Assembly: GCF_000802205.1 (NCBI RefSeq)
Contig: NZ_CP012850.1
Location: forward strand, 2,816,587-2,880,586
DNA length: 64,000 nt
Direction: 5' to 3'
Source: Candidatus Nitrosocosmicus oleophilus
GTDB lineage: Archaea > Thermoproteota > Nitrososphaeria > Nitrososphaerales > Nitrososphaeraceae
The translations under genes were made by a program, and so were the position numbers. Every line of letters starts with the position of its first letter. The stretch's first letter is position 1. Below the pieces are notes generated by a model that was not told the DNA's origin, made no database searches, and worked only from the letters and a program-made list of their open reading frames with translations. Of this stretch, positions 3,211 through 6,340 are shown in pieces.

Positions 3211-4245
3211 ATGGCAATACAACACAAGAAAATCTTATCGATTGCAATACTAGCATCTTTACTAGTTTTTAGCTTCACCGTTTCATCTTCAACGGCTATT
3301 TCCTTTGCTCAACGGGATGGAAGTAGCGGAGGAAACCAAGCTGCAGCTCAAAACAGTCAAGACGGAAATAATGACTCAGAAAGTGGAATAAGTCAATCTA
3401 GCTCCAGTTCTCAAAGCTCTGAATGTCTATCTGGAGGAAGTACCACAGGTAGCTGCAACAACATAAGTGTGCAAGCAAACCAGAATGGAAATGACGAAGA
3501 GGAACCAGTAAAGAAAGCACCAGTAACACCAGAAAGTGAAACACCAGCAACTGCCGAAGCAACAGGCCCAGTCAGTGCATCTGTCTCTTGCGGAGAGGTA
3601 ATCAAACAAAGTGTCAAATTGACTTCCAATCTTGATTGTAAGACTGATGGTATAATCATTGGAGCAGACGGAATTACAGTAGACTTAAACGGTCACACGG
3701 TTTCTGGACCTGGTGTAACAACATCTAAAGTCGGATTCATGTTGAGCGACAAAGACAATGTTAACATTGTAGGCCCAGGTATAGTCCAAAACTTCCAAGC
3801 AGGAGCACTAAATACAGGCGGACAGGACGACAAGATATCTGCTGTAACATTTACCCAAAACCAAATAGGATCATTTAACACAGGCGCAGCAAGAACTACA
3901 ATAGAAGACAATTTGTTCTTTAGTAACAACATTGGTGTAGCATCTCATTCCTCAACAGGGACCCATTTGATTACAAACCTATTCAAATCAAATGACCTTG
4001 CTGGAGCAACATTTGTAAACTCTGCAGCAAACGAGGTATCATTTAACACCATCCAAGGTTCAGTAAGTGGACTGTTCTTTGATGGGCAAAGTAGCGACAA
4101 CACAGTCAACGCAAACAACATCTTAGACAACAAAGGCGTAGATATCAATAATGCAAACGGCCTCCCATTGAACGTGAACAACAACCTATTTAACGACAAC
4201 AACTGTAATTCATCAATTCCAGTTGGCCTCTGTCTAGGTAAATAA
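3211..4245 (+). CDS. Secreted right-handed beta-helix (NosD-like) protein
   Basis: 344 residues. A signal peptide (1-34, ending ISFAQ) is followed by a Ser/Gln/Asn-rich stretch (35-90), an acidic Pro-rich linker (95-120) and a parallel beta-helix domain from about 123 to the end. The helix begins with CGEVIKQSVKLTSNLDC and GIIIGADGITVDLNGHTVSGPG, typical of pectate-lyase-like or NosD-like repeats, then Asn-rich coils such as VEDNLF-type turns. Such proteins bind or cleave polysaccharides or form surface scaffolds; no catalytic residues can be named, so the substrate is unknown. Its C-terminal 28 residues (NGLP...DNNC...GLC.G) closely match the visible end of the repeat protein at 62045-64000, indicating a paralogous family in this genome. 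Confidence 0.82.
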   Translation: MAIQHKKILSIAILASLLVFSFTVSSSTAISFAQRDGSSGGNQAAAQNSQDGNNDSESGISQSSSSSQSSECLSGGSTTGSCNNISVQANQNGNDEEEPVKKAPVTPESETPATAEATGPVSASVSCGEVIKQSVKLTSNLDCKTDGIIIGADGITVDLNGHTVSGPGVTTSKVGFMLSDKDNVNIVGPGIVQNFQAGALNTGGQDDKISAVTFTQNQIGSFNTGAARTTIEDNLFFSNNIGVASHSSTGTHLITNLFKSNDLAGATFVNSAANEVSFNTIQGSVSGLFFDGQSSDNTVNANNILDNKGVDINNANGLPLNVNNNLFNDNNCNSSIPVGLCLGK

Positions 4246-4394: not shown

Positions 4395-5672
4395 CTATAA
4401 GTTGTCTTTTATAGCAAGTTCATATAGCTGATCTGAGAGTATTGTGAACCCCAGATCGAAATTAGAAGTTGAATTATTTAGAGCCCAAGTGTTTAATACT
4501 AAGGTAACCTTGTCCCTATCAATATGAATAATTGGGTGATGGTTTAACATTTGGGCCAATTCGCTAACCATGTACGAAAATTTGACAGATTTAGGGAAGC
4601 TGTCAAAGATAAAAACTTTTGATAAATTCTGGGTTTCATTAATACTATCTCCTAACGCTTTCCAACCATCAGACTTTGTTAAATAGTCTAGGATAGTATC
4701 ATATTTAATAGATTGATAATTATTTGTCAAATTCTTTTGTAATTGTATTAAGTTTTGTTTCAAAATTTCCCCAATACTAATATTTGTACTTATTAATCCT
4801 CCGCTTGAGTAAGTGAAATTCTTATTATTGATGTATGAATGAGAAGGAATCACCAACAGGTCATAGCGGGTTTCATAATCCCATCCTATTGGAAGTCCGA
4901 ATGACATACTCTCATTAGTAACGCCATTACGTTCTTTAGAAGTATTAGAAAAACCGCCTTCAAAGGTGATTGTGTGTTTTCCTACAGTTAATGGTTTCAG
5001 AAAAACCCAGTTGCCGTCAGAAATGGCAGCACTTATTTCACCTTTAGTCAGATTCAAAAAATTATTCGCAGGCAGTGAAAAATTAAACAAAGGAGATTGA
5101 ATTCGGTATTCATCTAGATTCAACAAAGGTCGATCATCTAATGTTGCATTCAAGTGATTAACATGATTCTGAATAGATTGCGCACACTCCATTAATCCAT
5201 CCTCATTTTTTATCAATGGATATTCAATGTAAGAACATTCGGAATTAAGTATAGGAAACAGAATTCCTATATTATCAGGTATAAGACAGGATCGATTTGC
5301 TGAATGATTAAAAGTTCCATCAAGAAACCAGACCGGACCATATTGGTTAATGTTGCAATTGATTCCATAGACATCATATGCAGGATTTTTGTTAAGAGGG
5401 ATTGAATATGCCCACTTCCACCATTCAGCAGTCCAATCTTTATATGATTTTCCAAATATTTGAGATTTGTTATCATACATAACATCGGAAGTTGGAAGAT
5501 TAGCGCGGTAGTCATAAGAATGTTCCTTACCATAGGCATTTTCCATCATGTAGACTAAGGGGAGCAACTGACTCAAACCAAGAAATATCATTATCAAAAA
5601 AGGGAATAGAATATTTGTTGTAGTGCTAAAGTGTCCAAATAAATTAAATCCAGAGATGAAGTTATTTGTCAT
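4395..5672 (-). CDS. Secreted protein with C-terminal pterin-4a-carbinolamine dehydratase-like domain
   Basis: 425 residues in two parts. After an N-terminal hydrophobic signal or anchor (about 21-46), residues 75-300 form an exported domain rich in Trp, Cys and N-glycosylation-type NXS/T sites (DWTAEWWKWAYSIP, GPVWFLDGTF, PILNSECSYIEYP). Residues 335-422 read as a PCD/DCoH domain: GWKALGDS, FIFDSFPKSVKFSYMVSELAQ, the hallmark NHHP (377-380), and VTLVLNTWALNNSTSNFDLGFTI. Two of the three active-site histidines (HH at 378-379) are kept, but the third (the TH of the usual L.TH motif) is Trp396. PCD normally recycles pterin cofactors in the cytoplasm; here it is predicted outside the cell, so a canonical role is doubtful. 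A TATA box 26 bp upstream supports the start. Confidence 0.82.
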   Translation of the reverse strand: MTNNFISGFNLFGHFSTTTNILFPFLIMIFLGLSQLLPLVYMMENAYGKEHSYDYRANLPTSDVMYDNKSQIFGKSYKDWTAEWWKWAYSIPLNKNPAYDVYGINCNINQYGPVWFLDGTFNHSANRSCLIPDNIGILFPILNSECSYIEYPLIKNEDGLMECAQSIQNHVNHLNATLDDRPLLNLDEYRIQSPLFNFSLPANNFLNLTKGEISAAISDGNWVFLKPLTVGKHTITFEGGFSNTSKERNGVTNESMSFGLPIGWDYETRYDLLVIPSHSYINNKNFTYSSGGLISTNISIGEILKQNLIQLQKNLTNNYQSIKYDTILDYLTKSDGWKALGDSINETQNLSKVFIFDSFPKSVKFSYMVSELAQMLNHHPIIHIDRDKVTLVLNTWALNNSTSNFDLGFTILSDQLYELAIKDNL

Positions 5673-5950: not shown

Positions 5951-6340
5951 ATGAGCGGCATTGACACTATTGTAAAGAAATTTGATGAATTTGAAAATTC
6001 AATGAAAGAGGGACTTCCAAAAGTGGATCAGAGGTTGGTTATTGATATGCTTCATCGAATGAAAAGGGATGACTCACCAATGTATACGATTGAAATATTT
6101 CTCAAGGAAAAACCAAACACTGAAGAAATAAGGTCCATTATTGAACAAGGTTTGGGGGTAATGCCTGCGTTTTACGATCATGGAACTCACATAGTGGTAG
6201 CACATCGATTTAATCTGCAGATGCTTGATTATGTATCAAATAATTTGAATGTTGAGAAGATCAGAGGGACATTTACAGGAGCAGGCAGAGGGGCTTCTAT
6301 AGGTCCTGTATTTGAAAGAGACGATAGACCAGATTACTAG
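5951..6340 (+). CDS. Conserved small protein of unknown function
   Basis: 129 residues, soluble, no signal. It starts MSGIDTIVKKFDEFENSMKEG and continues with a compact alpha/beta pattern (SPMYTIEIFLKEKPNTEE, THIVVAHRFNLQMLDYV, IRGTFTGAGRGASIGP). The Gly-rich tail could be a binding loop. I recognise no named family. An overlapping ATG at 5947 is in another frame. A TATA-like AT stretch lies at about 5916-5930. Confidence 0.7.
   Translation: MSGIDTIVKKFDEFENSMKEGLPKVDQRLVIDMLHRMKRDDSPMYTIEIFLKEKPNTEEIRSIIEQGLGVMPAFYDHGTHIVVAHRFNLQMLDYVSNNLNVEKIRGTFTGAGRGASIGPVFERDDRPDY

Follow-up and report, generated by a model that had tools for sequence, protein, structure and literature searches.

PCD/DCoH is a textbook small fold that has been put to unrelated jobs, as an enzyme, as a transcription cofactor and as a Rubisco assembly factor, and the locus described here raises the question of what such a fold might do at the C-terminus of a protein that is likely to be exported. 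The gene lies on the minus strand at positions 4395–5672 of the window, the 64,000-nucleotide stretch of the Candidatus Nitrosocosmicus oleophilus genome (one contig, 99.75% complete) that was analysed. It starts with an ATG at 5672, ends with a stop codon at 4395–4397 and encodes a two-domain, exported-type protein of 425 aa; this reading is supported by the open reading frame with its translation and by a syntenic ortholog in G016 that is 86% identical. Approximately 2.7 kb away, positions 1113–1676 hold an open reading frame which looks AmoC-like from its sequence features, and its neighbourhood is kept in G006, G007, G008 and G009 (protein ~99% identical). Positions 1883–2515 encode an exported-type protein in which DTNSTG is repeated in tandem, the repeat being rich in N-glycosylation sequons.

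The C-terminal domain (aa 325–425; 4398–4700, minus strand) is, judged from sequence and predicted structure, a true PCD/DCoH fold, as the original prediction had proposed. PF01329 matches aa 325–400 with 41 bits (E=2.1e-10) in a Pfam profile search, exceeding the gathering cut-off of 26 bits, and the closest solved relative found by phmmer in the PDB is 2EBB, a PCD from Geobacillus (E=2.2e-6). The AlphaFold model of aa 305–425 (pLDDT 85) matches 2EBB in Foldseek with a TMt of 0.90 and an rmsd of 1.5 Å, followed by mammalian DCoH, the Brucella and Thermus PCDs, and acRAF. Both the profile search and the structure prediction proposed as checks thus came out in favour of the domain, with PF01329 significant and the PCD fold kept in the model, and the agreement of profile, PDB sequence and fold evidence rules out a chance or low-complexity match.

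The domain that precedes it (N-domain, aa 60–290; 4803–5495, minus strand) is an exported-type, mostly-beta domain to which no Pfam or NCBIfam name applies, with no convincing NCBIfam match and no relative below E=0.09 among PDB sequences. The protein contains exactly four cysteines, at positions 106, 129, 146 and 163, of which C163 is almost always and the other three are always kept among 26 N-domain homologues (alignment A2); a WWxW motif is a further feature of the family. An alignment mixing both domains, in which standalone PCDs were misplaced on the N-domain, was discarded. The N-domain model (pLDDT 88) gave weak, Ig-like Foldseek matches. Among these, a chagasin-like peptidase inhibitor was considered and rejected, since EhICP2 reaches a Foldseek E of 3.9e-5, yet with TM scores of 0.25/0.48 and an rmsd of 8 Å, such that only the description 'Ig-like sandwich' was kept. 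The full-length query finds matches in 60 of the 70 genomes of the taxonomic family, with up to ~25 per genome, the weakest of which may be to the PCD part. The N-domain also occurs in bacteria, including Paraburkholderia, Streptomyces, Deinococcus and Pseudoalteromonas, and three other proteins of the window genome consist of the N-domain only. In three other Nitrososphaeraceae genomes it is fused to dCache_1, an extracellular-type sensor (L013, 969–2207; L014, 607–2415; L027, 622–2349), while elsewhere it continues into long repetitive tails that are acidic and rich in Tyr and Asn, or is followed by a multi-transmembrane region at the C-terminus (L148, 898–2025; L149, 1218–2261; L147, 1134–2609). 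The N-domain is therefore a module to which different C-terminal partners can be attached. Two public records, L096 and L098, titled Nitrosopumilus sp. and Klebsiella pneumoniae MAG, look mislabelled, and the Klebsiella-titled one carries an N-domain protein.

Candidatus Nitrosocosmicus is the only genus in which the fusion of the PCD domain to the N-domain was found, in seven species and always at a single syntenic locus; the proposed search for the same two-domain order in other AOA genomes thus succeeded among relatives within this genus and not outside it. The locus has the same flanks in 7/7 genomes, between the genes at positions 3211–4245 and 5951–6340 of the window. The gene is intact in two species (the window genome, G000, and G016) and broken in five of the seven, where the copies were compared by separate open pieces only. 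In-frame stops interrupt codon 85 in G009, codons 52 and 181 in G011, and codons 174, 228, 263, 272 and 337 in G017, with frame changes in all three and no stop in common between them; the G006 copy has a deletion and many stops, and that of G008, a single-contig genome, is badly degraded. Errors of assembly are unlikely to explain the breakage in general, given the single contig of G008 and the multiple lesions found in several copies. In G005 and G007, the flanking genes are only ~0.8 and ~0.5 kb apart with no detectable remnant between them, so that the gene is absent in at least these two. The repeated inactivation in relatives indicates that the function is dispensable. Recent phage or plasmid transfer of the fusion gene was rejected, as no phage match was found and the matches on plasmids extended over no more than the N-domain part; a plasmid search with the PCD domain returned weak matches only, mostly annotated as 4a-hydroxytetrahydrobiopterin dehydratases. 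Our literature searches found no paper on the architecture.

Such a pattern could mean that the gene had a role in the ancestor of the genus and is now on its way out, with the window copy merely not yet broken and its active-site changes being decay. The lack of a shared stop among the three alignable broken copies, the absence of the gene at the locus in G005 and G007, and a Trp to Arg change at position 386 that is specific to the window genome would all fit this explanation, which we nevertheless regard as unlikely, because the full-length frame is intact in two species and dN/dS between them (Nei-Gojobori) is 0.35 overall (95% bootstrap 0.23–0.54), with the N-domain at 0.22 and the PCD domain at 0.43. 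When five genomes were compared in all ten pairs, the PCD domain gave dN/dS values of 0.22–0.56, with the 95% bootstrap interval below 1 in 9/10, although a pair that includes a broken copy combines evolution while functional with evolution after inactivation, so that the constraint in the past was probably stronger than the values suggest. Purifying selection has acted on both domains. In addition, Gln374 and a non-His aromatic residue at position 396 are common to the fusion copies, and, being shared, predate the decay.

The active site itself bears on whether the domain could still be a working enzyme. The NHHP motif at aa 377–380 (4533–4544, minus strand) and the position of Asp406 are kept in alignment A3, and Trp396 (4485–4487, minus strand) occupies the position of the third active-site His; motif and Trp are located exactly where the original prediction had placed them. 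An argument built on this His replacement is weak, since in 2EBB, which was deposited as a PCD, this ungapped position is a Trp as well. Loss of the third His was thus rejected as proof of inactivity, and W396 alone does not show loss of activity. A better argument, on sequence comparison, is the combination of Gln374 (4551–4553, minus strand), where standalone PCDs have Glu or Asp, with Arg386 (AGG; 4515–4517, minus strand), where they have Tyr or Trp. An acidic residue at the position of Gln374 is found in 51 of the 56 distinct PCD-like sequences collected, none of these 51 being fused to an N-domain; 50/56 combine Glu or Asp four residues before the first His with a Tyr/Trp aromatic and His at the third position, and in one more standalone protein the third position is Phe. 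Wherever a fusion copy can be read through the site, it has Gln at the first position, with Trp or Tyr at the third; Arg386 is found only in the window genome, relatives' copies readable at this position having Trp. The catalytic residue set of PCDs is reportedly captured by a motif of Naponelli et al. from 2008, [EDKH]-x3-H-[HN]-[PCS]-x(5,6)-[YWF]-x9-[HW]-x(8,15)-D. H378, H379, P380, W396 and D406 fit this motif and Q374 and R386 violate it, while 2EBB fits throughout. A standalone canonical PCD of 87 aa (105 bits) is encoded elsewhere in the window genome, and PF01329 occurs in 244 of 300 sampled genomes of the class, where the matches listed lie nearly all in open frames of ~90–150 aa. We note that a second standalone PCD in G014 (L081, 1447–1740), with Phe in place of the third His, is a further non-canonical variant, and that in G152 (L072, 1501–2274) a PCD domain stands behind another N-terminal domain, ~160 aa long, which shows no evident signal sequence.

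A PCD enzyme that is still active, exported or anchored, and acts on pterins outside the membrane could account for the kept HHP and Asp406, for a Trp that 2EBB shares and for the aromatic Trp386 of the relatives. We consider it quite improbable, given that every fusion copy readable across the site has Gln374, that the window genome has Arg386, and that the best score against the NCBIfam PCD equivalogs is 32.6 bits with a cut-off of 80, far under every PCD equivalog cut-off; moreover, no extracellular 4a-hydroxytetrahydropterin is known.

Several features suggest that the protein is likely to be exported. The N-terminal region (aa 1–48; 5529–5672, minus strand) contains the single hydrophobic segment, at approximately aa 20–42, with a KD19 maximum of 2.24 at residue 21 and no window above 1.6 elsewhere, followed by a possible signal peptidase site, A-Y-G (46–48), read by eye with the −3/−1 rule. 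The whole protein has 15 N-x-S/T sequons versus 6.4 expected by shuffling (p 0.0005) and the PCD domain has 4 versus 1.3 (p 0.03), with none in five cytosolic PCDs. Together with the conserved cysteines, these features speak for export; against it stands the absence of Lys or Arg before the hydrophobic segment, which is unusual for a signal peptide and leaves a doubt over topology. It is very improbable that the segment is instead a membrane anchor with both domains cytoplasmic, for although the uncharged stretch before it and Lys49/Arg56 after it would favour a cytoplasmic C-terminus by the positive-inside rule, the conserved cysteines are the only ones in the protein, sequons are in excess, and N-domain homologues begin with ordinary signal-peptide-like sequences (for example, MEKSVIIVLFIVLLIAVLPTNALFA) or in some cases carry the extracellular-type dCache domain.

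We therefore favour, with our confidence evenly poised, a dispensable envelope-facing protein in which a non-canonical PCD-fold module would act in ligand binding, in oligomerisation or in both. The N-domain, which belongs to a large exported-type family with four conserved cysteines and WWxW, has acquired at its C-terminus a true PCD/DCoH-fold domain. This join, found only in Ca. Nitrosocosmicus, is inherited at one locus and was broken several times. The protein would be exported and face the envelope, and its PCD domain would probably not carry out normal 4a-carbinolamine dehydration, because the conserved acidic residue is Gln, the aromatic is Arg in the window genome and the separate canonical PCD covers the cytosolic function. 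Rather, the fold and its HHP pocket may have been retained for binding of a small aromatic ligand, for multimerisation of the N-domain at the cell surface, or for both, with the dCache sensor of other family members as a possible parallel; an oligomerisation role is plausible from what is known of the PCD family. Reuse of the PCD fold in an exported protein, as first suggested, remains the best-supported reading on the predicted fold, the separate canonical PCD, the sequon excess in the PCD domain and purifying selection, with its third-His argument set aside. Counting against repurposing, the HHP pocket may still be catalytic, and, with repeated inactivation in relatives, the window copy could be under relaxed constraint too (R386). 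Only tentatively would we go further and suggest that in this archaeal lineage the PCD fold now works outside the cell, as a ligand receptor or as a multimerisation module on a promiscuous exported domain that carries dCache sensors in other proteins; soil ammonia oxidisers would then have surface binding proteins of a new class. An extracellular role, which is probable, would widen the range of jobs of the PCD/DCoH fold, and the findings draw attention to a large and unnamed family of exported domains, present in terrestrial ammonia oxidisers, that acquires varied C-terminal modules; the importance to the organism is limited by repeated loss in close relatives.

No other copy of the N-domain family examined, which comprises hypothetical proteins of Nitrososphaeraceae, Paraburkholderia, Streptomyces and others with the same four-Cys WWxW domain, carries a PCD domain, whereas some carry dCache_1, repetitive or transmembrane tails. 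With the PCD/DCoH family (PF01329, EC 4.2.1.96), including the genome's own 87-aa PCD, the C-terminal domain shares the predicted fold, HHP and Asp406, but it belongs to an exported-type protein in which the acidic residue and, in the window genome, also the aromatic one are missing. The Geobacillus kaustophilus PCD (2EBB), the closest solved structure by both sequence and fold, likewise has HHP and a Trp at the third-His position, but is a small standalone protein with Glu and Tyr where the fusion has Gln374 and Arg386. Finally, acRAF (PDB 4LOW), a pterin-dehydratase-like Rubisco assembly factor, is a case of the PCD fold being taken into an assembly role (PMC12918739). The PCD domain of the fusion resembles it in Foldseek with a TMt of 0.81, whereas acRAF is cytoplasmic, comprises a single domain and has different partners.
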